A stretch of 64,000 bases of DNA. It comes from Plumapathes pennacea. Lineage: Eukaryota > Cnidaria > Anthozoa > Antipatharia > Myriopathidae. Under the pieces are notes generated by a model. It had not been told where the DNA came from and did not search any database. It was given only the letters and a program-made list of their open reading frames with translations. The stretch spans positions 12,095,578-12,159,577 of the forward strand of contig OZ038470.1 of assembly GCA_964036295.1 (NCBI GenBank). The letters run 5' to 3'. Positions 12,906 to 63,804 of the stretch are shown here, in pieces. Position 1 is the first letter of the stretch; each line of letters opens with the position of its first letter. Position numbers and translations under genes: made by a program.

Positions 12906-14207
12906 TTTGCAGGAAGACGTATAGCCCTTAGATTCTTGGAGCTGTAATTTCATATTTTAACGTGAAACAGCCATAGTGAAGACACTTTTCTCACAACGCC
13001 TTGCGCGAAAGTCTTCTGTAATATCACACCGTGTCTTATGAGCTGATGGTAATCTCGTCGATGTGGATTCTTAACACCGTCACAGATAACAAATTAAGCA
13101 AACAATTGAAGAATTTAAGGGGTAAGAAAACTTGGAATAATTTATATATAATTTATATAATTTAAGTTGTTAGAAACGTTGTTAACCTGAGCTAGAGTGT
13201 AGAGTGTTCACTTTCAAGTTTGCTGGGATTTATCGTGTGATTTAGGGTCTCTTCAAATAAGCCCGGTCATGTGTTCATATGGGAAATTTTAGCCCGGGTG
13301 GCCGAGATGAAAAATGCGGGAAGCGCCAAGGGCCTGGAAAAGCGTTCCGTTTAGTTAGCGACCTTGCAAGTCATGCGTAGTAAAAACACTTTCATCCCGG
13401 CTAAACTGGCTGGAGTGTTCATATGAGAAACGGGCCAGCACAGTTTACTGAGATCACGGTCACATCGGAATTTTTACAAAGGAAATAGTGGGAGGTCGAG
13501 GTCTCGGTAATGCGGGCTTATATGAAGAGACCCTCAAGGACAAACTACTGCGCATAACAACAGAAAAACATTTACAAATAATTATCAATGTTACCTCTGA
13601 CTCGGTCTGCGTCATTAAAGTACTTAGTCTTTGTAGGGCCGTCCGGCTTGTCCCAGCTTGTGTGGTTTGGTGCAGATTGTAATGCCTGTTCGTCTCGCAC
13701 AATTGACCACTAAAAGGAGCCCTCTCCAGTCGACAAACACTACCAACAGGGGTGAAGTGGTATGAACAAGAGTAGCCCTACCTAGCCGTGCGCACGGCGA
13801 CGAAAGCGGCTACCTCGAAAGCCGGTCGATCGATTACAGTACTGTATGCAAAATAAATTCAATGGGCCGAAATTCACCGAAAGTGTCAAATTTTCCCCAG
13901 CCGGGTAAGGTCGGGCACACGGTTCGAAAATCGAAGTTGCCGAGCTTTCGCTGGCATTTTCGCATCGAGAAATGGTGTTTATCGGCTGCATGTTAATGTG
14001 TCTGAGTAGTCTAGTCATCACTTACAGTGCATTATTCAATCAATGCATAAACATTAACATGACCAACAACATAAAAAACAATCAGGAAAAATCACAAGAC
14101 ATGCCTTTTATACTGGAGAGCTAAAAAGCAATCTGTTAGTGAAGCATACGACTAAACCGCTCAGCAATCTGTTAGTGAAGCAGACGACTAAACCGCTCAG
14201 CAATCTG
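12906..14207. other. Intergenic region between convergent POMGNT1 and HypX-like genes
   Basis: I see no gene here. The region holds the presumed POMGNT1 3' UTR, a MITE with long terminal inverted repeats at 13242-13534 (listed separately) and unclassified sequence from 13535 to 14125. Open frames inside it are short and lack family features. Confidence 0.6.
13242..13534. mobile_element. MITE with about 22-bp terminal inverted repeats, TAGGGTCTCTTCA family
   Basis: The left end TAGGGTCTCTTCAAATAAGC and the right end GCTTATATGAAGAGACCCT are inverted and nearly identical, enclosing 293 bp with no coding capacity. Sub-repeats (TGTTCATATG(G/A)GAAA near 13271 and 13414) occur inside. Confidence 0.7.
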
Positions 14208-14216
14208 TTAGTGAAA
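14130..14216 (-). repeat. Short tandem repeat overlapping the HypX-like stop codon
   Basis: The unit GCAATCTGTTAGTGAAGCA(T/G)ACGACTAAACCGCTCA (about 35 bp) is present about 2.4 times. The TAA stop of the HypX-like gene (14210-14208) lies in the last, partial unit, so unit-number change here would alter the 3' UTR. Confidence 0.7.
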
Positions 14217-15989
14217 TACAAACGCCTTACGAGCGTTGTGGTATGCGGGGTCTTGAAAGTTCTTTTTCATGATTTCTAGCTCGCTGCTTCGATGTTCTTC
14301 TACCGTTTTAAGATCATCTTCAGATGCTCTTTTACGAGCGGAGGAAGTAACCAGACTTCGGCCATATTCGTGCACTTGCTCTTCAAATTCTTCCACGTTT
14401 CCTCCCATCTCTGCGTCCAACAAACCCATCTCAACAGCTTGGGTCGATAACACTGGTTCTGCGGTGTGCAGAAGCTCTTGTGCCTTGCGTTGACCCACAC
14501 GCTCTTTCAAGAAGTACGTGTGATACTCAGAACCATACAGGTGCATCATCTTGTAGTGAGGGTTGAGAACGACGCCTTGTCGCGAGACCACAAGATCACT
14601 CGCCAGTGCCATCATGAAACCTCCCGCTCCCGCGTTTCCTCGCAGCGCAGAGACCGTGATCTTCTGACTCTGAAAGACGCGGCGAACTACATCGTTGATG
14701 GCGCTGATATTCTGCCATGATTCTATCGCTGGATTTGTGGCGCTCTCGATGGTATTGAGGTGAATACCGTTGCTGAAGAAGTTGTAGCCTCCTTTGAGAA
14801 TGATGACTTTGCACCGCTCGTCTTGCTCGACTTGTTCGAGAACCGACTGCAGGCGCATACACTGACTCGTGCTCATGGCTCCGTTGTAGAAATTGAAATT
14901 GATGTGGCACACTCCATCTGGCGAAACACTGGTCCAGATTTCTTGGAAAGTGTCTGGAAAAGAATTGAACAGAATCTGAACAGGAGGACTTGGCAAAACT
15001 GGAACTTCTTGAATATTGTGGTTGAGCCAGTACATCGCTGGAAGTTTAAGCTTCGACCGTTTCAAATGAGAGAGCCACAAAGCGCCTTGAGCACATTTGA
15101 CGAGCACAGCGTTGTCGCGTTGGCCGATAATCTGTCCAGGTCTTCCTTTGACGTTTACCAACTCTCCTCTCTCCAGATGAGCGCCAAATACTCGGAACTC
15201 CTCGGTCTAATGCCAGTTATCATTGATCTGAAAACAAAACCGCGCTACTGCTCCAGGAGAGGAATCAGACATGCGAACCTGAAGAGCCACTTCGTCAGCT
15301 GCTAGGTTCCAGTCTACCAGGCGGTTTTCTTTCTTCATGTTGGGTTTCAATGAGCCTCGGACTCTGGGGTTGTTGTAGTCCAGCGGTCTGGGCGGCTTGT
15401 TCCTGCGGAAATTGTCTAAAGCCGCCAGGACACTCAGCGCGGCTGCCTTCGTCACCTCGTGTACATACAAGCTGGATTTGGTGAGAGTATTGACGTCTGG
15501 ACGGTTTATTGGAAATGTGGTCGTACTCCATATGTCTCCAGTATCCATTTCCTTGTTGGCTTGCATGACTGTCACTCCCCACTCGGACTGACCCTCTTTC
15601 AGCGCCCAGTCTAGTGACGACATGCCACGATCTCCTTCGATCCCTGGGTGGACAATCAGACAGGGAGTGTTTGGGTTGGAGCAAATAGCCTCTGGGACTC
15701 TCTTGGTGAGAAATGGACACACGATCAGGTCGGGCTTTTTTTCTTGCGCTGCAGGAATCATGGATTGGGGATCTTCAACCTCGTGCACATGGACATTGTG
15801 GTTTCTCTGTTTTAGCTCCAGTGCTACTCGCTGGCTCAAACTGTTGTGTTTGTTGGTGAAGAAGAGAAGGTTCAGCCGTTCCCGCCTTAGTGAATCACTT
15901 TTAAACCTTCGCCCGGTAATTATTTGCAAGCGGGAGCTGTAGACTCTTGTCTTGACGACGTTGCGGCATAATACTCCAAGACCGGACAT
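14208..15989 (-). CDS. HypX/HoxX-like formyltransferase-crotonase fusion, one in-frame TAG
   Basis: A single intronless frame from ATG at 15989 to TAA at 14208 (593 codons) is interrupted only by TAG at 15209-15207 (codon 261). The N-terminus is Arg-rich and non-acidic (CRNVVKTRVYSSRLQIITGR), like a mitochondrial leader. Residues about 38-230 are formyltransferase-like with VHPGIEGDRGMSSLDWA (HPG at 114-116) and EMDTGDIW. After the stop, about 320 residues are enoyl-CoA hydratase/isomerase-like, with SALRGNAGAGGFMMALASD and VVLNPHYKMMHLYGSEYHTY. This order is that of bacterial HypX, which makes CO from formyl-tetrahydrofolate for NiFe-hydrogenase maturation. Animals lack that enzyme, so a one-carbon role here is inference. 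The TAG could be a pseudogene lesion, readthrough, an assembly error, or part of a 42-nt GT-AG segment (15248-15207) whose removal keeps frame. Lack of introns beside intron-rich neighbours hints at transfer or retroposition. Confidence 0.8.
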
Positions 15990-16304
15990 CTTTCCTCTGA
16001 AGTCAAGATTTTTCTCGTTAGAATAAAGTCACTTCAGGATTGTACTAAACGCTGACCCGTATAAAATGCTGAAGACGCACACAGAGGGAATGATCCCGTA
16101 CGAAAAGTTTGAGCCTGAAAGGGCCAAAGACACGCTCGAGTCCAGCCATAAACGTATCAATATTAGAGGTCAATCACAACCAGACATCAACCTAACATAA
16201 AATTTGTCATGTTCATGCACGTGGACGAGCCAGGCAAGTTTGGCTGCGAGAGATAAGAGGGACCATAACTATGGCGTTGTATCCCTGCTATATTCCCGAA
16301 CTTG
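15990..16304. other. Upstream region of the HypX-like gene
   Basis: No gene is seen. This is the presumed 5' UTR and promoter of the minus-strand HypX-like gene; no clear TATA box or named regulatory motif could be assigned. Confidence 0.4.
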
Positions 16305-16398: not shown

Positions 16399-16710
16399 TT
16401 TTATAAAATAACTATGATACTATGCGTGCCCTGATTGGCTAAATAACCGTGTTAGATGAGAGTATATTACACGCTGACGCGATACGCAATGTTTTTTACT
16501 TGGCTAATTATTTTATAAAAGAAATATATAACGTGTTCCCGTGTAATATAGCCTCATCTAAACACTTAGGAAGTTGGGAGAACACTCGAGTAGCGCCGGA
16601 AACCACTCGGCGGCCTCGTGGTTTCCATACGCTACTCTCGTGTTCTCCCAACTTCCCGCGTGTTTAGATGAGGCTATATTACACGGTAACGCGTTATATA
16701 TTTCTTAAGT
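16399..16710 (+). mobile_element. Foldback MITE, GTGTAATATAGCCTCATCTAA family, copy 1
   Basis: The left module TTTTATAAAATAACTATGAT...CTGATTGGCTAAATAACCGT is followed by a partial arm, CGCTGACGCG, then a 146-bp palindrome (16540-16685) with the loop CCACTCGGCGGCCTCGTGG. The end reads GCGTTATATATTTCTTA. Relatives: a copy lacking the palindrome at 19336-19484 and the palindrome alone at 31871-32027. Confidence 0.75.
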
Positions 16711-20654: not shown

Positions 20655-21749
20655 GTGCAAAGTTTGGAAACGCTTGGGCGACTCGCAGATGTCAAGGGAA
20701 ATGTGAGATCCACTTTAGATAAACTAAAGGAAATCAAAAATTATCTGGTGCGTGGAAACGAAGGCTGGAAGGACTGGGACTTCACAGATCTACTAAAAGA
20801 GCTCAAGAACTGGACTGAGATAAACCCAGTAGAAGAAAGCGCCGCAGAGAAGAGCCCGTCGAAGGGATATCAAGAAAAGCATCAAACGCGTGTTTACAAT
20901 ACACAATCAAACCATTCTCAGCAGGAGCCTCGCGCCGGAAATCGCTGTGTTTACTGTGAGGATGACAAGCACAGATCAACGGGATGTACAAAGATCACCG
21001 GAACCGATGAAAGAAAGAGCATTCTGTCTGAAAAGAGACTCTGTTTCAATTGCACCGGGGCAAGACATCGCGCAGACGAATGCAAGAGCAAATTAAGGTG
21101 TCAAGTGTGCAGCAAAAAACACCACACGTCGCTCTGTTACAAGCAACATGACAAAGCCAACTCACTGCTTGTCGCCACAGGAAATCCAACAGCGAGTGTG
21201 ACATATCCAGTTGTTCTTGTTCAAGTTGAGGGAATCAAATGCCGAGCCTTGCTAGACACGGGCGCAGGAAATTCCTACGTATCTGCTGCTCTCCTGGATC
21301 GAATTCCAAGTCGCAAGCTCAAGAAAGAAGTCAGAAAAATCGAAATGCTGTTGGGAACCTCGACCAGAGAAGTGGAGCTCACCACAATCGAGATTTCTGA
21401 GATAAATGGCAGATTTTCGATGCCCGTGGAAGTAACCAAAGTTGAGAAAGGAGAACTAATTTTCCTCGACAATCCAAACTATCAAGAAACGATAGAAAGA
21501 AATCCACACCTATCGGGAGTTGTGATGCATGATGACGACACAAAGAGCCGCCTCCCAGTGCCCATTATCCTTGGAGCGGGTGAATACACGAAGCTGAAAA
21601 CAACGAGTGCACCAAAAATTGGCGAGCCTGGTCAACCTGTTGCAGAATGGACACAATTCGGGTGGATTATCGTGTGCCTAGGAAAAGAGGCCTTGGGCTT
21701 GACGAACATGCTGCTGACTCAAACATCACACGCAGATGTGCCGGCTTGA
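20655..21749 (+). pseudogene. Element A gag C-terminus and aspartic protease (Bel/Pao)
   Basis: The open frame has three zinc-knuckle-like clusters (CVYCEDDKHRSTGC, CFNCTGARHRADEC, CQVCSKKHHTSLC) followed by a retropepsin-type active site, ALLDTGAGNSY, typical of Bel/Pao polyproteins. Upstream the homologous frame continues to about 20590 but has a TAG stop. Downstream it shifts frame before the element B insertion. In intact elements this region packages RNA and processes the polyprotein; this copy is broken. Confidence 0.8.
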
Positions 21750-21854
21750 TGTTCTTGGCCTGGCAGACACACCGAGCAACGACCAAGGCAGCGTGTACGT
21801 AGAATTCAAGGAGGAACTTGTTCGAGACAAAGAGGGTTGGTACGAGGCCAGTCT

Positions 21855-22097
21855 TATTATGGATTGTTCGCCCCCCAAACGCTAGTTTCCATAAACTTCA
21901 CTTTAATCACTTGGACTTTGATCACACGTGTACAAATCACTCGCTCGCTCACTTCTCTGTCGCGCACTGTTCCGTCTAACCTCGTGGTTGTAGTTGCCTT
22001 ATTGGCTATTGATCATTATTTGTCAATCACAATTAACACTCTTAAATCATCGATAAACTTAAACTAATTATAAATTCGTGAGCCCCAGTCCCCGACA
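21855..22097 (-). repeat. Element B 3' LTR
   Basis: A 243-bp LTR flanked on its low-coordinate side by GTCT. The inner side carries a purine-rich primer tract (TATGGGGGAG on the minus strand, 22107-22098), the start of plus-strand synthesis. It is nearly identical to 27439-27681. Confidence 0.93.
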
Positions 22098-22218
22098 CAC
22101 TCCCCCATATATACTTTCCTTAAAGTATATATGTGACTTAAGTTGGACTGGTCTCTGAAACTACAGCATAACGTTGAATCTAAACTGGTGTTCTCAATTG
22201 TCCTATAAAATTGATTGC

Positions 22219-24640
22219 TCAGTTTTCTTCCTGGTCCGCGATATCCTGGATTCTCGCTGTGGCTGCTGCTGCTGCATCTCTTCGGGGTCTTGGGTTGAAT
22301 TCTGCGGCTGTCGGGTTGAGCGGCGCAGGTGGAACTCGGTCGCACGACAATTCTAGAGGGTAGAGGTGTTGCGTCGCTCGCTCGAGAACGCTCTTGCCCG
22401 CTCTTAGTTTGGCTGCTCGTGTTATCCCGTCTCTCCCCTGAATTAGCTGCTCCACGATTCCGAGTTTCCACTGATGGCGTTTCTTTAGGTCATCTCTGAT
22501 TATGACCACGTCTCCAACACTTGGGTGAGGCGTCTGTTCGCCTCCAGCTCGGCGGTGTTGCTCTTGAAGGTTGCGCACGTACTCTTTGGTCCAGCGACTC
22601 CACATTGCTTCCTTGCAGCGGGTGAGGTACCTGGCCCTTTTTCGCAGCTCTGTCTCGGGAATGTGGTGCGCCTCTAGGTCGGGCAGGTTGTTAGGTTTCA
22701 GATGTAGCATCGAGCTTGGTGTAATCAGCAGTAGTTGAATGTCGTCTTCTAGATAGCTCAGAGGTCGACTGTTGATGGCGACTTCAACATCGAGCACCAC
22801 TTCCTCCAGCTCTTTCCATTTCAGGATCCCGTTGCCAACACTTTTGTAGAACGCATTCTTGAAAAGGCCAATCAGACGCTCGAATTGGCCACCCCACCAG
22901 GGAGCTCGGCTGAGGTTGAACTGCCACTTGATAGAGTGTTGGGCTAAGAAGTCGTTGAACTTCTCACTTGTTTGTGCTGCCTTGAGCCATTTCGCTGCCG
23001 CCTTGAACGTACTTCCATTGTCGGAATATATCAATCCAGGTCGTCCACGTCGGGCTATGAATCGTTTGAGACTTAGAACAAATTCTTCTGTCTCCAGGGA
23101 TCGCAGTAGGTCCAGATACACTCCCCTTCTCAAACTGCATCCATACAGCACCAGGTAGGCTTTGCTCTCCGTTTTCGGTTTGGATTGGTATGTTATGGGA
23201 CCGGCGAAATCCACTCCTATAACCTGGTACGGCGCGTCACCTTCGGTTTGGGTGCTGGGCAGGTTGCCTGGCGGTGGTGACTGGAAGGCTCGGATGCGGA
23301 ACCTCTTGCATCCCCAGCAGCTACCACGTACTTTCTTGACTAAGCGCCGTAGTCGTGGGACCCAGTACGACTCCCGCACTTTTGCCATTGTGAGTCCCAC
23401 TCCCCCGTGCAGTGTCATGAGGTGGGCTTGGCGAACCAGCTTGCTCGTGAAGGGATGCTCGTCCGGCAGGTAGACCGGGTATTCTCCCTCCAGCCGTCCT
23501 CTGCACTCCAAGACTTGCTGGTCGTTCAGCTGCAGGTTTAGGTGGAGTTGGTCCTCCTCGAAGTGGGCATTGTTCTGGGCGTCCACTTGAGTTCGTTTGA
23601 TCCACCACTTGTTCTGGGTCTCTATCTCTACTGTCGTTAGTGGACCGGACACTCTGTTTGCAGCAGCTGACTTGCAGTTTTGGATGAATCGTCTCACCCA
23701 GGCGCCGATTCGTAGAATCTTCCAAAGCTCGTACTTGTCTAGTAGTTGGTCGAAGCTGTTATCTGCCGGCATCGCCACTGCGAAGATCTCTCTTGTGACC
23801 TTTGTTTCTGCCTTTGACTCTGCTGAAGGCTCAAGCGTCTTGTCTGGTGGCCATTGGGATGGGTCTGACAGCCATGGCGGTCCATACTGCCATAGTTCTG
23901 AGTTGGCGATACTCCCCCCTCGGCTTCCCAGGTCGGCGGGATTCTCGGCGGTTGGCACGTGGTGCCACTGGACGTCTTGATGTCGCTGGATCTTGTTGAC
24001 TCGATTGGCTACAAACTGCCTGTACTCCCCCTGCTCGTGTATCCAATACAAAGCCACGGTTGAATCGGACCAGCAGTGTACTGCGACTGGGTAGCTGTCA
24101 AGGACGGTGCGTACGTTAGTGGCGAGGTTCACAGCCATGTGACCGGCAACTAGTTCCAGCCTTGGAATCGTCAGGTTTCGCTTGGCCAGTCGTGACTTGG
24201 CGCAGACAAGTCTTTGCGTTGTTCCCTGCTCCTGTCTCACTCCTGCGTAGACCGCTGCACAGACGCCGTGTGTGCTTGCGTCTCCGAATGCGTGTAGGGC
24301 TATCTCTTGAATTGGCTGTCGGTGAGGGGCAAGTGGGCGTTGCACGGTGACGTTGTCGGACAGTTCTGACCACCACTTGTTCCACTGCTTGCGCACGTGT
24401 TCTGGTAGTTTGGCGTCCCAGCCTACTTTGCTGTCGCAAATGTCGCGATAAATTAGTTTCCCAGTGAGGGTTGTGGGCGAGGCCAAGCCTAACGGATCAT
24501 AGATTCGGGCTACTTTGGACAGGACTCCTCTCTTGGTGGGCTCTGCTGCATCTCGCGGGAAGGTTATCGCCAGAGTGTCCCGTTTCTTGTCCCACTGCAG
24601 ATCTTGGTTTCTGACGATCCTGTTCCAAGTTGTTGTTTGG
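22219..24640 (-). pseudogene. Element B pol: RNase H, integrase and C-terminal domain
   Basis: An uninterrupted frame over this stretch has RNase H features (HAFGDASTHGVCAAVY; RLELVAGHMAV; HCWSDSTVALYWI), an H2C2 integrase zinc finger (HGGVGLTMAKVRESYW to CWGC) and a DDE core with VIGVDFAGP, YSDNGSTFK and WWGGQFERL. It ends in a basic tail near an SVGDVVIIRDD segment. All three integrase acidic residues seem present. It is separated from the RT part by a frameshift near 24640. Confidence 0.88.
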
Positions 24641-25380
24641 CATATGATACCTCATCATGGCCCTCTAAAGGGTCACTGTTTCCTTCTACTTCCTCGGCAT
24701 TCGAGTGCCATTTGTGCAACTTGAACGTTGCGTCATCGAAGACTTCAATAGTGGTTTGCTTCTTGCACCGGACCTCTTCTACCGCGGCTCCCCCTGTTAA
24801 TAGATCGTCCACGTACAGACCGTCTCGAATTTCCTTGACGATTTCTGGGTACTGGGTTTCCCATCTGGCGAGGTGTTGGCTGATGACTCCCCCCAGCAGA
24901 AATGGCGAAGACGTCAACCCGAACAGGGCTCGTGTGAAGCGGTAGACTTCCGTTTCGGTGTGCCCTGGTCTCCTCCAATGAAATCTCAGCGAGTCTCGCT
25001 CTTCCTCTTTAATCCTGATTTGAAGGAACGCCTTTTGTATGTCGCCCGCTATCACAATTGGGTAGAATCTTGCCCTTATTAGCACGCTCCAAAGGCGATT
25101 TTGGAGCGGCGGTCCCGGGTGTAGGCAGTCGTTGAGGGACGGCTTGTTAGTGTTCTCTCTCGCGGAGGCGTCGTACACAATCCGCAGCCTCGTACTCTCA
25201 GCGTTCTGTCTGGTTACTCCTTTGTGCGGAATATAGAACTCCTTTCCACTGGCTACTTGCGGCGCTGGTTCTACGACGCCCTGCTGGAGTTGTTCTTGTA
25301 TGATGGCATCGTACTTCTCGTACTCTCCGCTGCGCTGTACTTTCCTGATTAGGTTTTCTAATCGTCTCCGGCTTCCGATC
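24564..25380 (-). pseudogene. Element B reverse transcriptase segment
   Basis: The frame contains LRIVYDASA, PSLNDCLHPGPPLQNRLW, GDIQKAFLQI and the catalytic YVDD box (GLYVDDLLTGG), all Bel/Pao RT signatures. The start is joined directly to the protease end with loss of expected sequence and a frame change near 25385. The end shifts frame near 24640. Confidence 0.85.
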
Positions 25381-27364
25381 TCATTAGTTGGTCATTCTCT
25401 GGCGTGTCTTCTAACCCGAGCACGTCCAGCGCACAGAGCTGTTCGTAGTCTGTGCTTGTAGATTGGGTCAGTAGTAGCTTGCTGGTAACTTCTTCTCGCC
25501 CAGGTGACATCAACGTCCAGCCCAGAAGCGTTTTCTCTGCGACCGGTTGTCCTGGCGTGCCTACTCGTGGCGACGTTCTGGTCTTTATGGCTGCATATTC
25601 GCTGGCTCCAAGTACGACGTGGATCGGAAGTTGCGGCTTGCAATCAGACTCATTCATTTTTACGCCTTTCAGGTGGGCGTATTTGTTTATCATTGCTTCA
25701 TACCTTGGATTGCCCAAACTCATGAGTTGGGATTTGTGAACTTTCGTCATGTCCACATCCATAGAAAATGAGCCATCTACCGACTTGACATTCGCTGAGT
25801 AGATCTCGACTTTCACTGTTGTAGTTCCCAACATCATTTCGATCCGTTTGGTCTTAACTTCCGTTGGTCTCTTTCGCAAGGCGTTGATCAGCTTTGCAGA
25901 GGCGTATGAGCTTCCGGCTCCGCTGTCCAGCAGCGCTCTAGTTGGGATTCCGTCAACTTCAATTTGAAAAACAGGATAAACTACTTCATTGTTCTCAGAG
26001 TGGTGAGCTGTCATGAAGTTTTCCGGTTTGGATTCCTTTGTTGTCTCACAGATGGACGTGTGGTGTCTTCTGGCGCAGTTTTGACAAGTAGCGGTGCTTT
26101 TGCATTCTGCTGCCCGGTGTGTCGCTCCGGTGCAGTTGAAACACAGCTTCTTTTTGGCCAACACCATTTTCCGTTCTTCAGGTGCTTGTACAACTTGACA
26201 GGTCGATGACTTGTGATCCGATGAGTCACAATAAACACATGTGTTTGACCTCTGTTGACTTTTCTTTTGTTGGGTCTGGAAAACTTTACTTGGCTTGTTG
26301 CGATGTTTCCGGTATTCGTTGTCCGGTTGTTTTGTTGCTTCGACAGGATTCCTTTCTGTCCATTCCCCAAGTGCGTCTACCAGCTCGATAAAACTCCACT
26401 CCTTCCACTTAGGGTCTGTGCGTACCAGATCTCCCCTGATGCTGGACAGCTTGTTCAGCGTCATTCTCACATACCCATTCACGGTGTTTAGCTTCTTCAA
26501 AGTTTCCAGAGACTGTACGCTGTACCGTAGCTTCTCGAAGAATGTATGAATTTTGTTAGGTTGCGCGCCACTGATGGTCGGCAGAGCGATAATTCCTTCT
26601 ACATAAGCGTTGGTGACTTTGCTGGTGTTTCCATACTTCTCCAAAAGTATGTCTTTGGCTTTCGAGTACCCTTCTGCGGTGAACGGCAATCCATCAATGC
26701 TTGTTCGGACCTTCGGTTCCACGAGTTCCTTTAAGTAGGCGAATTTCGTTATTTCGCTAATGTTCTGTTTGTCTATCACTGACTGGAACTGGTTCCAAAA
26801 CCTCAGCCAGTCGCTGTAAGATCCGTTGAATTTCGTAATCGTCAGCTTCGGTAACTTCGCCGTGAGTCCGTCTTTGTTGGTCGGTTGATCTGGATGCGCT
26901 TCGTCTAACATCTGCTGATACTTTAGTTTTTGTTGTAGCAGCTTCTCCTCTTGTCTTATTTGACTGTCTCTCTCGTGCGCTTCATGTTCTTGTTGTAGCT
27001 GAAACTGCGCTTTCTCAAACTCCAGTTGTGCCCTTCTCTTCTCGGCTCGTTCGACAACTTCTGCCCTGCTGCTGACTTCTTTGATGTGGCTGGCGAGCTG
27101 TCGCACTTTACCGTCTGCTTCGGTTACTGCTTGCTCTATGACTTCTCCCCACTCTGTGACCTCTTCCACAGTCTCGCCCTTGCTGAACTTTAGCTCTTCG
27201 ATAGCTTCCTTCGTTGTGGTAACGGCTTTGACCATGTTTGATATAGAGTTTCGTTGTCTTTCGGAGACTTCTATGTCATCTTTGGCGAGGACAGCGTCTG
27301 TCTTGGCGGCGGTAAATGCCAGGACTTTCACTTTCGCTTGCAAGTGTGCAATTAGTTCTTCCAT
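25358..27364 (-). CDS. Element B gag-protease polyprotein (668 aa)
   Basis: The intact frame begins at ATG 27364, 75 bp inside the 5' LTR. It has an N-terminal coiled coil rich in E/K/Q (about residues 60-160), a gag core with SDWLRFWNQFQSVID, three zinc knuckles (CVYCDSSDHKSSTC, CFNCTGATHRAAEC, CQNCARRHHTSIC) and a retropepsin site, ALLDSGAGSSY. The frame terminates soon after ENDQLMRS because of the rearranged junction with pol. Functional gag and protease could in principle still be made; expression is untested. Confidence 0.85.
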   Translation of the reverse strand: MEELIAHLQAKVKVLAFTAAKTDAVLAKDDIEVSERQRNSISNMVKAVTTTKEAIEELKFSKGETVEEVTEWGEVIEQAVTEADGKVRQLASHIKEVSSRAEVVERAEKRRAQLEFEKAQFQLQQEHEAHERDSQIRQEEKLLQQKLKYQQMLDEAHPDQPTNKDGLTAKLPKLTITKFNGSYSDWLRFWNQFQSVIDKQNISEITKFAYLKELVEPKVRTSIDGLPFTAEGYSKAKDILLEKYGNTSKVTNAYVEGIIALPTISGAQPNKIHTFFEKLRYSVQSLETLKKLNTVNGYVRMTLNKLSSIRGDLVRTDPKWKEWSFIELVDALGEWTERNPVEATKQPDNEYRKHRNKPSKVFQTQQKKSQQRSNTCVYCDSSDHKSSTCQVVQAPEERKMVLAKKKLCFNCTGATHRAAECKSTATCQNCARRHHTSICETTKESKPENFMTAHHSENNEVVYPVFQIEVDGIPTRALLDSGAGSSYASAKLINALRKRPTEVKTKRIEMMLGTTTVKVEIYSANVKSVDGSFSMDVDMTKVHKSQLMSLGNPRYEAMINKYAHLKGVKMNESDCKPQLPIHVVLGASEYAAIKTRTSPRVGTPGQPVAEKTLLGWTLMSPGREEVTSKLLLTQSTSTDYEQLCALDVLGLEDTPENDQLMRSEAGDD

Positions 27365-27418
27365 TTTGCTCTTGAACGGGCTTCCTCACGAGTTGTCCCT
27401 AATCGCACGGTCGATGCG

Positions 27419-27436
27419 TCCCCGTCGGAGGTGCCA
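27419..27436 (-). other. Element B tRNA primer-binding site
   Basis: Two bases inside the 5' LTR the minus strand reads TGGCACCTCCGACGGGGA. The TGG start and position are those of a primer site complementary to a tRNA 3' end (CCA). I cannot name the tRNA with confidence. Confidence 0.6.
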
Positions 27437-27438
27437 GG

Positions 27439-27681
27439 TATTATGGATTGTTCACCTCCCAAACGCTAGTTTCCATAAACTTCACTTTAATCACTTGGAC
27501 TTTGATCACACGTGTACAAATCACTCGCTCGCTCACTTCTCTGTCGCGCACTGTTCCGTCTAACCTCGTGGTTGTAGATGCCTTATTGGCTATTGATCAT
27601 TAGTTGTCAATCAAAATTAACACTCTTAAATCAACGATAAACTTAAACTAATTATAAATTCGTGAGCCCCAGTCCCCGACA
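27439..27681 (-). repeat. Element B 5' LTR
   Basis: A 243-bp LTR upstream of gag, followed on its outer side by the target duplication GTCT (27682-27685). It differs from the 3' LTR at six positions, so the insertion is recent relative to element A. Confidence 0.93.
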
Positions 27682-27733
27682 GTCTACCCTGGCGAGGAAA
27701 TCATCCCACATTGCCAAACAACAAGGAGGGAAG

Positions 27734-28353
27734 CGTTATAGCAGAAAATTGGAATATCTTCCCGTAGTTTTGGAAGCGAATAAATTAGTGAATTGGAGTT
27801 CTTTTGTTGACAATTGTAAGAGTTAGAATAGATGTTTAATCAAGGTTTACGTTGTTGCTTACTGAGGCCTTCCTCAGGAAATTTAAGTGATCTTGTTATT
27901 AATTGAAGATCCTGCTTTAGGAAATGAGCAACAGCAAGTGCGCACACTGCCGTAGGCGTGCCAGCACCTTCTCTTCCTTCAGATCTTAACTACAGCCAAT
28001 CATATCCATTGGAATGTGTTAGTGTGATTTTAGAATAAGTGTAGTAAGCAAATAGATGAGCCACTCGAGTGTTAACGACATCTTAGCGGAAAAGTCCATT
28101 CGGAAATGTGAGTTCCGAATGTGACTTTGAACTTGGTCCTAGCGAAAATCCATTTCCTATCCTTTGTGCTATAATTCGGCCAGTGTAAAAACTATAGGAA
28201 ATCGCTGGGACGACTTAACACTTGTGGTGCATAAAAGCTGTCGGCTAAGAAACTAGTAAGATATAGTGAGACTTGTTCTTGAAAACGGAACATCGACGCT
28301 AAAGTGCATTGAAAGTGAGCTTCAACTCTAAAGTCTGTTATAGCCCCGTAACA
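27734..28353 (-). mobile_element. 620-bp insertion in element A, probable solo LTR
   Basis: GAAG is duplicated at 27730-27733 and 28354-28357. Skipping the insertion and one duplicate continues the element A frame (KEGS before, MRRLEYLN after). On the minus strand it starts TGTTACGGGGCTATAACAG and ends CTGCTATAACG, resembling LTR termini with one changed end base. No coding region is visible, which fits a solo LTR. Confidence 0.65.
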
Positions 28354-28358
28354 GAAGT

Positions 28359-29277
28359 ATGCGGCGACTAGAGTATCTCAACAAGAAACTTGAACGCCAG
28401 GGACTCACAGCCGAGTATGAGAAAATCATTGAGGAGCAGAAGGAAACCGGAGTTGTGAAGAAGGCAGAGCTGACGAGCGTCGGTGACCGGGAGTTCTACA
28501 TCGCACACAAACCAGTTGTTCGAGCCACAGCAGAATCAACAAAGCTGAGAATAGTATACGATGCTTCTGCAAGAGCGTATGATGGGGCTCCGTCGCTGAA
28601 TGACTGTTTGCATACGGGTTCACCCTTGCAGAACAAACTTTGGAGCGTCTTGACAAGGGGGAGGTTTAACCCTGTAGCTGCGACCGGAGATCTGAAAAAG
28701 ACCTTCCTACAAGTAAGAGTGAAAGAGAGCCACCGCAACGCAATGCGGTTCCACTGGCGCAGAGACTTTAAGATTCACGAGGGCACTTTTTGGACTTGCG
28801 CCATCGCCCTTTCTGCTTGGGGGAGTCACCGAAGTGCACCTCAACAGCTGGGAAGAGAAAGAGCGGGAAATAGTAGCCAAGATTCGCCGGGAGCTGTACG
28901 TCGACGATTTAATCTCCGGATCAACATCAGTGACCAAGGCCAGGGAACTGAAAGATAAGGCCACAACTATCTTTCAAGATGCGTGTTTTGAGCTTCACAA
29001 GTGGCATTCAAACGTGCCTGAGCTAGAATCAGCGCGGGCGTCAACCGAAGAGGAGCCTACATACGCGAAACAGCAGTTGGGTATCTCACAGGGAGAGTTC
29101 TCTAGTCTTCTCGGGCTCCGATGGAACAAGGAACGAGATACAGTGATCGTTACAATCCCAGCTGAGAAAGCCACCTTAACCAAGCGAGGTATCTTAGTTA
29201 AGCTGGCTAAAAAACCCTTTGGAACTAGTCGCACCTGTGACTTTAAGTGGCAAGATCATCTACAGAGCAGCTTGTGA
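28359..29277 (+). pseudogene. Element A reverse transcriptase, broken
   Basis: The first frame (28359-28775) has IVYDASARAYDGAPSLND and LQNKLWSVL. A frame change and lost sequence near 28770-28840 remove part of the palm. A second frame (28834-29277) has the RELYVDDLIS catalytic box and FELHKWHSN. It aligns part by part with element B RT, showing two related Bel/Pao lineages nested here. Confidence 0.8.
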
Positions 29278-30211
29278 CACCAAGATCGCCTGGGACGCGC
29301 GACTACCAAACAATCTAGCTGATTCGTGGCTCAAGTGGGAAAGCAGACTACCCCACTTCGTTGAAGCACCAAGATCGCTAGTCTTTCATCAAGAGGACAT
29401 CCAGCAAATCGAGCTATATTCCTTCGGAGACGCCTGCGCAAACGGGGTTGCAGCCTGCGTTTATGCAGTCGTCCGACAAGCATCGGGGACTAACCAGGGC
29501 CTTGTCGGAGCCAGATCGAGACTGTCCAAACAAGGATTAACAATCCCGCGGCTGGAACTGGTTGCTGGCCACATGGCCGTGAACCTCGTTGCCAGTGTAA
29601 GAGATGCTCTGGACGGACTTCCAATAAGCAGCACACATTGTTGGCTGGACAGTTCAGTAGCCTTGTACTGGATTCGGGGACAAGGAGAGTTCAAGCAGTT
29701 TGTCTCTAATCGGGTACAGAAGATCAGCAATCACCAGGAAGTAGTTTGGCACCATGTTCCCACTGCAGACAACCCTGCCGATCTCGGAAGTCGAGGAGGA
29801 TCCGTAGAGAGAGCTAATTTGTGGTGGTATGGCCCGAAGTGGCTTTCAACGCCAGAACATTGGCCAGCTGATGTACTGAACGAACCTTGCAAGGAGAGCC
29901 AGGCCAAAGCCAAAATCGTGCGCATGGTGCTAGCAGTTGCAGTTAATGATTTGAACGAGGTGAACGAGGTGAACGAGGTGAACGCGGTGAACGCGGTGAA
30001 CGAGGTGAACGAGGTGAACGCGGTGAACGAGGTGAACGAGGTGAACGCGGTGAACGCGGTGAACGCGATGAACGCGGTGAACGCGGTGAACGCGGTGAAC
30101 GAGGTGAACGAGGTGAACGAGGTGAACGAGGTGAACGCTGTGCGTGAATGCGGCGATTTGCATACAACTTCCGCTGCAACAGGAAAGGATCACGAATCAC
30201 GGGACCACTAA
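29219..30211 (+). pseudogene. Element A RNase H with in-frame repeat expansion
   Basis: The frame contains ELYSFGDACANGVAACVY, IPRLELVAGHMAV and HCWLDSSVALYWI (RNase H-like) and PTADNPADLGSRGG. It then runs into 21 tandem N-(E/A)-(V/M) triplets encoded by a 9-bp repeat and ends out of frame relative to the integrase part. Confidence 0.8.
29954..30142 (+). repeat. 9-bp in-frame minisatellite, 21 units of AAC-GNG-GTG type
   Basis: Exactly 21 units of AACG(A/C)GGTG (one with ATG, the last AACGCTGTG) encode (N-E-V)/(N-A-V) repeats. It lies at the RNase H-integrase linker of element A, where element B instead has a FDQLLDKYELWKILRIGAW-type sequence. Units differ mainly at one base (GAG or GCG), with similar variants clustered, suggesting slippage-driven growth. 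Confidence 0.92.
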
Positions 30212-31557
30212 CGACAGAGGAAACGAGCCAGCAGAGGCTGTTTTGGGAGAAACAAGCCCAAACGAGCTGTGACATCGAGCAAGACCGCATGGCGTTAAAT
30301 GTGCAGCCCAATCAAGAAGGATTGTTGGAGTGCCGGGGCCGAGTACAGGGAGAGTATCCAACATATCTACCAGACTCCAGCATGTTCTCCCTTCGAGTCG
30401 TAGAAGAAGCGCACCGGCAGACGCTGCACGGAGGGGTAGGACTGACAATGGCCAAAGTGCGCAGTCAGTATTGGATCCCAAGGCTGAGGCAAATGGTAAA
30501 GAAAGTTCGTGGAAGTTGTCACGGATGCAAACGGTTCCAAGCCCTGGCTTATGCAACTCCGCCCCTTGGACAACTACCAACTACTCGCACCCTAGGAACC
30601 AGCCCATATCAACGAGAAGGGAAAGCGTATGTCCTGCTGTATACCTGCAGCCTAACAAGAGGAATCTACCTAGATCTTCTACCAAACCTCGAGACAGCAG
30701 ATTGTCTGGCCAGCCTGAAGCAGTTTATAGCACGCTGAGGGAGACCGGAAAGAATCTACTCCGATAATGGCCGAACATTTGTCGGAGCTGCGAAGTGGAT
30801 GAGAGCTGTCATGAAGGACGAACGGCTGCAGAATTACCTATCCATCAACCAGATCAAGTGGCAATTCAATCTGAGCCGCGCCCCATAGTGGGGCGGACAA
30901 TTTGAAAGAATGGCTGGTCTCGCCAAGTCAGTCCTTAACAAGACGATCGGGAAAGGAGTGCTGAGGTGGAAAGAGTTGCAGGAAGTGTTACTTGATGTCG
31001 AGGTAACGCTCAACAACCGACCGTTAAGCTACGTAGAGGACGACCTGCAGTTTCCGATCCTTACAACCAGTTCTATGCTGTTCCTGAACAGTAACGTGCT
31101 TCCGGAGTTTGCGCCAAACCGCATCCAGGCCGCTGACCTTCGGAAGAGAGCAAAACACTTGCTGAAGTGTAAGGACGCGATGTGGAAGCGTTGGACGCAA
31201 GAGTATCTACGCAGCCTTCGCGAGAGACACCACGCCCAAGCAGCACCCGGGAGAGATACACCATCCGTCGGTGACGTGGTGATTATCCGATCTGAAGAAA
31301 GAAACCGAGGGAAGTGGTCGTTGGGGATTGTGAAAGACCTAATCGTTGGAAACGACGGAGTTGCTAGAGAAGCAAGACTACGCGCGGGAGAGTCTCATCT
31401 TGAGCGACCTGTACAGCATCTCTACTCCTTGGAGCTGACGTGTGACAGGCGACCTCCAGTTGTGATGAATCCACAAGCGGCTCCCTTCAGGCCTAGGCGA
31501 GACGCTGCCGTCGCAGCACGCCTCCGTGCGCAAGACATTGCCCGAGATGAAGACTAA
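30148..31557 (+). pseudogene. Element A integrase, two internal stops
   Basis: The H2C2 zinc finger (LHGGVGLTMAKVRSQYW to CHGC) and the YSDNGRTF core motif are recognisable. The stretch around the first catalytic aspartate, VIGVDFAGP in element B, is missing after TSPYQ. In-frame stops occur at 30736-30738 (TGA) and 30886-30888 (TAG). The C-terminal part to 31557 is open and ends in RRDAAVAARLRAQDIARDED. It cannot encode a working integrase. Confidence 0.85.

Positions 31558-49968: not shown

Positions 49969-63804
<13,836 letters not shown>

Follow-up and report, generated by a model that had tools for sequence, protein, structure and literature searches.

What is a homolog of the hydrogenase maturation factor HypX doing in the genome of the anthozoan Plumapathes pennacea, and what could it make there? 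The locus lies in a 64,000-nt stretch of DNA (hereafter, the window), in which a sequence-only reading had recognized a HypX/HoxX-type gene, suggested bacterial origin or retroposition, and proposed that the animal protein may produce CO or handle formyl groups in mitochondria.

Results

A HypX-like coding frame interrupted by a single stop codon

The coordinates given by the sequence-only reading (14208..15989) are right, as is the order of a formyltransferase half followed by a crotonase-like half; the basic N-terminus was borne out, and both of the motifs quoted in that reading are present in the read-through protein. Its description of one 593-codon frame needs correction, however: a TAG at codon 261 divides the frame into open stretches of 260 aa and 332 aa, and the gene lies on the (−) strand, with frame 1 of the (+) strand containing many stops over the same interval. 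Since 593 codons with no more than one stop are far beyond chance expectation (P ~9e-12 for random DNA of equal GC), the observed gene is real. The absence of obvious introns holds for the coding part in both genomic copies (described below). The features of the locus are as follows.

14208..15989 (−), HypX-like coding frame, 593 codons plus TAA, with one in-frame TAG (own-genome match 100%, 1 stop)
15207..15209 (−), the in-frame TAG, codon 261, in the second formyltransferase domain and ahead of the crotonase half (the copy on contig C1 lacks this stop)
15879..15989 (−), basic, acid-poor N-terminal extension, residues 1-37, a putative mitochondrial presequence (pLDDT <50 for residues 1-35)
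15495..15776 (−), PF00551 formyl transferase N domain, residues 72-165, in which His114, Asp120 and Asp149 correspond to His74, Asp80 and Asp109 of A. aeolicus HypX
15021..15338 (−), PF02911 formyl transferase C domain, residues 218-323, which holds the TAG
14235..14918 (−), PF00378 crotonase-like domain, residues 358-585, in which Tyr479 and Glu488 correspond to A. aeolicus Tyr416 and Glu426
14021..16090 (−), block common to the contig C1 copy, comprising the coding frame, ~100 nt upstream and ~187 nt downstream (beyond it, short scattered repeat matches only)

Inspection by eye revealed several further elements around the gene. Just 5′ of the ATG, at window positions 15997-16021, both copies carry CTAAC ... 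TTCAG, which resembles a splice acceptor, and a 5′UTR intron ahead of the ATG is possible in both. A tandem unit of ~36 nt, with two full copies and one partial copy (~14125-14215), begins where the coding frame ends and extends into the 3′ flank; the C1 copy has it too. Approximately 0.5 kb upstream of the gene lies an inverted-repeat, MITE-like element (~16500-16690), and sequence resembling it is also present at other places within the 30 kb surrounding the C1 copy. Farther away, positions 20655-31557 contain pieces of BEL/Pao-type retroelements on both strands (Pao peptidase A17, DUF5641, DUF1759 and integrase H2C2), and positions 52897-53370 (−) show a weak match to CHDCT2 (slightly below the cut-off of 27.7, at 27.1 bits; E 4.8e-6), which is probably a piece of a CHD/Mi-2-type gene. 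No hydrogenase domain was found in the 8 window ORFs scanned out of 19 listed.

The read-through protein is a full-length HypX homolog

Domains PF00551, PF02911 and PF00378 all scored above the Pfam gathering cut-offs in a single chain of the read-through protein. The best PDB sequence matches were the A. aeolicus HypX entries (E 4e-112, query residues 36-591), and the next was a formyl-tetrahydrofolate (formyl-THF) dehydrogenase domain (E 9e-12). An AF2 model of the same protein, built from a 20-row alignment, had a mean pLDDT of 85 and a pTM of 0.85, with residues 1-35 below 50. HypX entries filled the first eight places among its PDB structural neighbors (best E 1.7e-57, with a TM of 0.85 on the query); ArnA followed in ninth place (E 1e-17). 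This full-length match to solved HypX in both sequence and fold, with three domains present, upholds the original identification as a HypX/HoxX-type homolog. The idea that the protein is instead a formyl-THF dehydrogenase of the ALDH1L type or an enoyl-CoA hydratase fusion formed by chance, both of which have distantly related folds, is exceedingly improbable and is ruled out by the match scores, because HypX matched over the whole length with 379 bits versus 47 bits over one domain for 10-formyl-THF dehydrogenase, and the Pfam scan found no C-terminal aldehyde dehydrogenase domain; the sequence-only reading had itself named best matches to such proteins as the way in which it might be wrong, and the best matches proved to be HypX.

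The window protein is 41% identical to the HypX of Cupriavidus necator, which is encoded in the hyp cluster on pHG1. It has the same domain order, fold (TM 0.85), and His-Asp-Asp and Tyr/Glu residues as the A. aeolicus (PDB 6j0p) and C. necator proteins. Unlike bacterial HypX, it is encoded without recognized hydrogenase genes around it, carries a basic N-terminal extension and falls within a separate eukaryote-side clade; in addition, the window copy has a stop, and its sister copy has Asn in place of a catalytic Asp.

Eukaryotic HypX proteins form an old clade apart from bacterial HypX

The sequence-only reading called the role of the animal protein undescribed; as a sequence, the family is not, as animal relatives already carry the NCBI name "hydrogenase maturation factor HoxX-like", which rests on homology only. 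Among the 120 matches listed, named relatives came from Oculina, Nematostella, Montipora, Hydra, Pocillopora, Actinostola, several Branchiostoma and Trichoplax, as well as from Hypsibius, Bradysia, Tubulanus, the moss Ceratodon, the brown alga Ascophyllum and Bacillaceae. Rotifers and the dinoflagellate Togula were among the relatives listed with a HypX-FolD fusion as the query (see below), and the annelid Owenia and the stramenopile Chrysoparadoxa were among further relatives listed. The window protein belongs to the same clade as the animal HoxX-like proteins, with 51-59% identity to the named cnidarian ones and 43-51% to those of Branchiostoma and Tubulanus. This old eukaryotic HypX clade is thus known by database name and is unstudied in the open-license PMC literature, where we found no study of a eukaryotic HypX.

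We built four trees from three row sets (85, 81, 81 and 58 rows), the first two quick and the last two careful, with rows chosen by hand so as to thin near-duplicates and unnamed rows. The rows of the first tree were the C1 copy, 54 proteins out of 121 and 30 bacterial loci out of 80; for the 81-row trees, 18 of the 85 rows were dropped and 14 added, and for the 58-row tree, 26 of the 81 rows were dropped and 3 added. In all four trees, one branch separated eukaryote-named from bacteria-named rows, with unnamed rows on both sides (SH-aLRT 100; 100/100 in the careful trees). The window and C1 copies formed a pair (100/100) with the database protein P0002 as sister (100/100), and they grouped with stony corals (100/94 in the 58-row tree); beyond P0002, the nearest rows were the stony corals, then Nematostella and the Hydra group. 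The animal clade, which comprises amphioxus, Trichoplax, the nemertean, the annelid and the cnidarians, had support of 100/97 in the 58-row tree and 100/98 in the careful 81-row tree without the annelid.

Because the copies are nested in anthozoans and the animal clade stands apart from all bacterial HypX, the window gene is, as judged from these alignments, an old inheritance rather than the product of recent transfer or contamination. A recent bacterial gene in the animal assembly would fit the intronless coding frame, but it has almost no probability left in view of the nesting of the pair among anthozoan rows and stony corals, the fully supported split between the eukaryote side and bacteria, the presence of two copies on contigs of 17.4 and 42.4 Mb, and the animal-type retroelements in the same window. 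Hence, the recent bacterial acquisition envisaged by the sequence-only reading is contradicted by the four trees, and contamination, which it had listed as a possible refutation, is ruled out by trees and genomic context; with its 17.4-Mb contig, BEL/Pao-type domains and weak CHDCT2 match, the locus is a HypX homolog in animal DNA, as that reading had held.

Not all animal sequences share this placement. Hypsibius (P0060) and Bradysia (P0063) sat with the moss Ceratodon (P0054) rather than in the main animal clade, and the rotifer fusions also fell outside it. A topology test that placed Hypsibius and Bradysia in the main animal clade, as a single origin of all animal HypX would require, rejected this grouping (p-AU 1.4e-6, for a group chosen after the earlier trees). 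Given their grouping with moss, transfer, a second history or contamination of the records is possible for the Hypsibius and Bradysia sequences.

The genome holds two copies, and the window copy is the interrupted one

Searches of the animal's own genome (290 Mb, 24 contigs) with protein and with DNA each gave 2 matches among the best candidates scored: the window copy on contig C9 (17.4 Mb) and a second copy on contig C1 (42.4 Mb) at 8392452-8394260, minus strand (L002 1498-3309), which is 92% identical and has no stop. Both coding frames are intronless, and the block common to the two copies spans ~2.1 kb. The coding sequences differ at 92 of 1779 bases (dN 0.038, dS 0.108). When polarized with relatives, 24 residue changes, including the stop, fell on the window copy and 22 on the C1 copy, with 3 ambiguous. 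At the position equivalent to Asp80, the C1 copy carries Asn, alone among the 261 rows with a residue there.

The window locus is therefore a duplicate, with a premature stop, of an old animal HypX member. Since a second, uninterrupted copy exists and carries an atypical Asn, the window copy looks recently disabled and the C1 copy is itself atypical. A recently disabled duplicate or null allele is the most likely status of the window copy, and the stop looks recent. With a stop in the window copy and Asn at the Asp80 equivalent of the open one, this species may be losing HypX function.

We consider it unlikely that the window copy is functional despite its TAG, whether through stop-codon readthrough, as a shortened formyltransferase of 260 aa or owing to an assembly or allele error at the TAG, with the C1 Asn120 copy being the degenerate one. 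Several observations are in keeping with such a function, namely, the retention of all five catalytic residues, the single disabling change in 593 codons, a dN/dS versus C1 of 0.35 overall and 0.23 after the stop, and the near-equal branch lengths of the two copies (0.037 and 0.035). However, a stop placed in the second folate domain deprives the product of its CoA half, and dN/dS before the stop is 0.56, although the contrast in N:S counts before and after it is not significant (P 0.09). As for how the disabled duplicate arose, the retroposition offered by the sequence-only reading is unproven: we saw by eye neither poly-A nor a clear target-site duplication in the aligned flanks of the two copies, and the C1 coding frame is intronless too.

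Catalytic residues are conserved across the family

According to the A. aeolicus HypX study, His74, Asp80 and Asp109 serve formyl transfer to CoA, and Tyr416 and Glu426 serve decarbonylation, with direct experimental results described as not yet available at that time (PMC6802093). A later review reports that CO generation from N10-formyl-THF has been demonstrated in vitro for C. necator HypX and that the bacterial reaction passes through formyl-CoA (PMC12134894).

We surveyed these positions in 264 aligned rows, consisting of 233 database proteins (including that of the window), the C1 copy and 30 of the 80 bacterial loci. The His114 equivalent was present in all 261 rows with a residue at that position, and the Glu488 equivalent in 262 of 262. 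Asp120 was conserved in 260 of 261 rows (the exception being the Asn of the C1 copy), Asp149 in 260 of 262 (two rows have Gly) and Tyr479 in 259 of 262, with Thr in three Bacteroidota. When read through, the window copy keeps five of five. The three Bacteroidota loci with Thr for Tyr416 (L037, L045 and L067) have hyp-type genes near them.

Most eukaryote-side HypX proteins inspected carry a basic N-terminal extension

In 20 of the 23 eukaryote-side rows inspected, a stretch of 15-120 residues in which Arg and Lys outnumber acidic residues precedes the conserved core. The stretch before the core is short in Hydra P0030 (4 residues), Bradysia P0063 (7) and the dinoflagellate Togula P0126 (0). 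For bacteria, we read 80 loci (the best 80 of at least 586) back to the upstream stop; at most 6 of these have room for at least 15 such residues from an upstream ATG, and 17 have room for an extension if any start codon is allowed. The hydrophobic moment of the window protein's N-terminus is not above that of shuffled sequences (410 of 500 shuffles reach it); among the 19 eukaryote-side rows tested, there were 8 whose hydrophobic moment was reached by <10% of shuffles. A mitochondrial location of eukaryotic HypX is plausible on this evidence.

Bacterial HypX also occurs away from hydrogenase genes

A scan of bacterial genomes confirmed at least 586 HypX loci, the best 80 of which were analyzed by ORF clustering, with hyp-gene calls made from cluster names read by hand from the sequences and some contigs short. 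At least one hyp- or hydrogenase-type gene was recognized nearby in 48 of these 80 loci and none in 32. For the 32 genomes of the latter loci, a whole-genome search detected HypD in 20 and gave no match in the other 12 (genome completeness not given), namely, L008, L009, L017, L032, L036, L046, L052, L060, L069, L072, L077 and L082; the control for this search was positive in 4 of 14 genomes, E. coli included. Nine of the 12 are not titled as MAGs (Peribacillus huizhouensis, Bacillus aerolatus, Cesiribacter, Marinomonas transparens, Andreprevotia and four Lysobacter). The lack of a HypD match in 12 of 32 genomes implies that HypX probably also acts outside hydrogenase assembly. On plasmids, three of the 8 regions opened from 47 records, with incomplete gene tables, contain HypX without annotated hyp genes within ~13.6 kb (Acaryochloris, Mycetohabitans and Nocardia), whereas hyp or hydrogenase genes are present in the remaining five. 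The neighbors of Lysobacter HypX gave no Pfam match in the frames called and no informative context.

In 4 of the best 80 of at least 586 loci, a co-directional gene with an MHYT domain lies downstream of HypX, assigned by Pfam for two of the four and by phmmer similarity for the other two.

L008 11736-14156, MHYT gene
L009 2828-5323, MHYT gene
L027 3234-6026, MHYT gene
L034 12756-14741, MHYT gene

An MHYT-PAS-GGDEF-EAL gene directly follows HypX in Peribacillus (55 bp gap), as does an MHYT gene in B. aerolatus (41 bp gap); in the Methylococcales and Methylococcaceae MAGs, the MHYT gene comes after one intervening gene of 282-288 aa. Such pairs occurred in 4 of the 32 loci without hyp genes versus 0 of the 48 with them (Fisher P 0.023), in a post hoc test and with the four loci forming two pairs of relatives and hence two lineages only. 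The two MHYT-bearing MAG genomes do have HypD elsewhere, and a search of 299 genomes from the order of Peribacillus (E 1e-80) found no further HypX-MHYT pair beyond the query genome. The MHYT domain of CoxC from Afipia has been reported to sense CO with copper (PMC11347149). CoxC-type MHYT proteins are sensors rather than producers, and their pairing with HypX is seen in bacteria only, by gene order alone; by analogy, the HypX-MHYT gene pairs are possible CO producer-sensor pairs, which suggests that HypX-derived CO can serve bacteria as a signal.

HypX is fused to FolD in several lineages

FolD converts methylene-THF to N10-formyl-THF, the HypX substrate. Proteins with the same HypX module as the window protein and added FolD domains (PF00763 and PF02882) made up 8 of the 120 matches listed with the window query. 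With a fusion as the query, they made up 120 of 120 listed, which is no frequency because the query was itself a fusion. Carriers are rotifers, a dinoflagellate, a brown alga, Chrysoparadoxa and Chloroflexota (P0123, P0124, P0126, P0091, P0241, P0182 and P0185), the HypX of the brown alga Ascophyllum being of the fused form. As the named bacterial and eukaryotic fusions lie on opposite sides of the main split in the trees, HypX and FolD may have been fused twice independently. If the enzyme that makes the substrate did join HypX on two separate occasions, this would be strong evidence about function.

Discussion

We favor, with moderate confidence, the reading that the window holds a stop-bearing duplicate of an old animal HypX and that the eukaryotic clade consists of mitochondrial N10-formyl-THF decarbonylases that release CO. 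Proteins of this clade would be imported into mitochondria, where the N-terminal domain would use its His-Asp-Asp residues to move the formyl group of N10-formyl-THF to bound coenzyme A. The formyl-CoA would then swing into the crotonase-like domain, and Tyr and Glu would promote its breakdown by decarbonylation into CO and CoA, the mechanism proposed for bacterial HypX. In the absence of a known NiFe hydrogenase to serve, CO or the removal of formyl-THF would be the product itself, and the CO might be used, for example, as a signal or, in cnidarians with CO-filled floats, as float gas. CO production or formyl handling, as the sequence-only reading had proposed, thus appears to be the best reading of the conserved active sites.

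The formyl-handling half of that proposal can also stand by itself: the proteins might dispose of formyl groups or supply formyl-CoA in mitochondrial one-carbon metabolism, yielding formyl-CoA or free THF and no CO. Such a role needs no hydrogenase partner, the reaction of bacterial HypX passes through formyl-CoA according to the review cited above (PMC12134894), and the FolD fusions tie HypX to folate flux as much as to CO. We nevertheless regard it as rather unlikely, because loss of CO formation should relax the residues linked to decarbonylation, and the equivalents of Tyr416 and Glu426, with the roles assigned to them in PMC6802093, are kept in nearly all rows. Under the decarbonylase reading, and since relatives of HypX occur in many animals and algae not known to have hydrogenases, eukaryotic HypX may be an overlooked animal source of CO.

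The carbon of the CO in siphonophore floats derives from serine, and, to our knowledge, the enzyme that makes CO in the gas gland has never been identified. HypX is present in Hydra, a hydrozoan as siphonophores are, and in anthozoans; occurring in Hydra and other cnidarians and using folate, it is an obvious candidate, by analogy, for the CO-making enzyme of siphonophore gas glands. Brown algae, too, make CO, although we found no paper saying so in the open-license PMC literature, nor one linking HypX to siphonophore CO. No siphonophore-named sequence was found among the HypX relatives listed. The secretion of CO by siphonophore gas glands is described in two papers (PMC6820529 and PMC3916360), the first of which cites work on the CO source and on folic acid derivatives in the gas gland; the words carbon monoxide, hydrogenase and folate are absent from the main text of two other siphonophore papers, on expression and genome (PMC8844502 and PMC13327316). 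We put forward only tentatively the broader idea that HypX is a heme-independent, folate-driven mitochondrial CO synthase which animals and other eukaryotes have inherited, and that it is the long-sought source of the CO in siphonophore floats and perhaps in brown-algal bladders; in other settings its CO would be a signal, as suggested by the bacterial HypX-MHYT gene pairs.

Heme oxygenase is, as far as we know, the sole widely taught enzymatic source of CO in animals. If our reading is true, a conserved HypX in animals would add another, supplied with one-carbon units from folate, and the HypX candidate would render the 60-year-old question of siphonophore CO directly testable.
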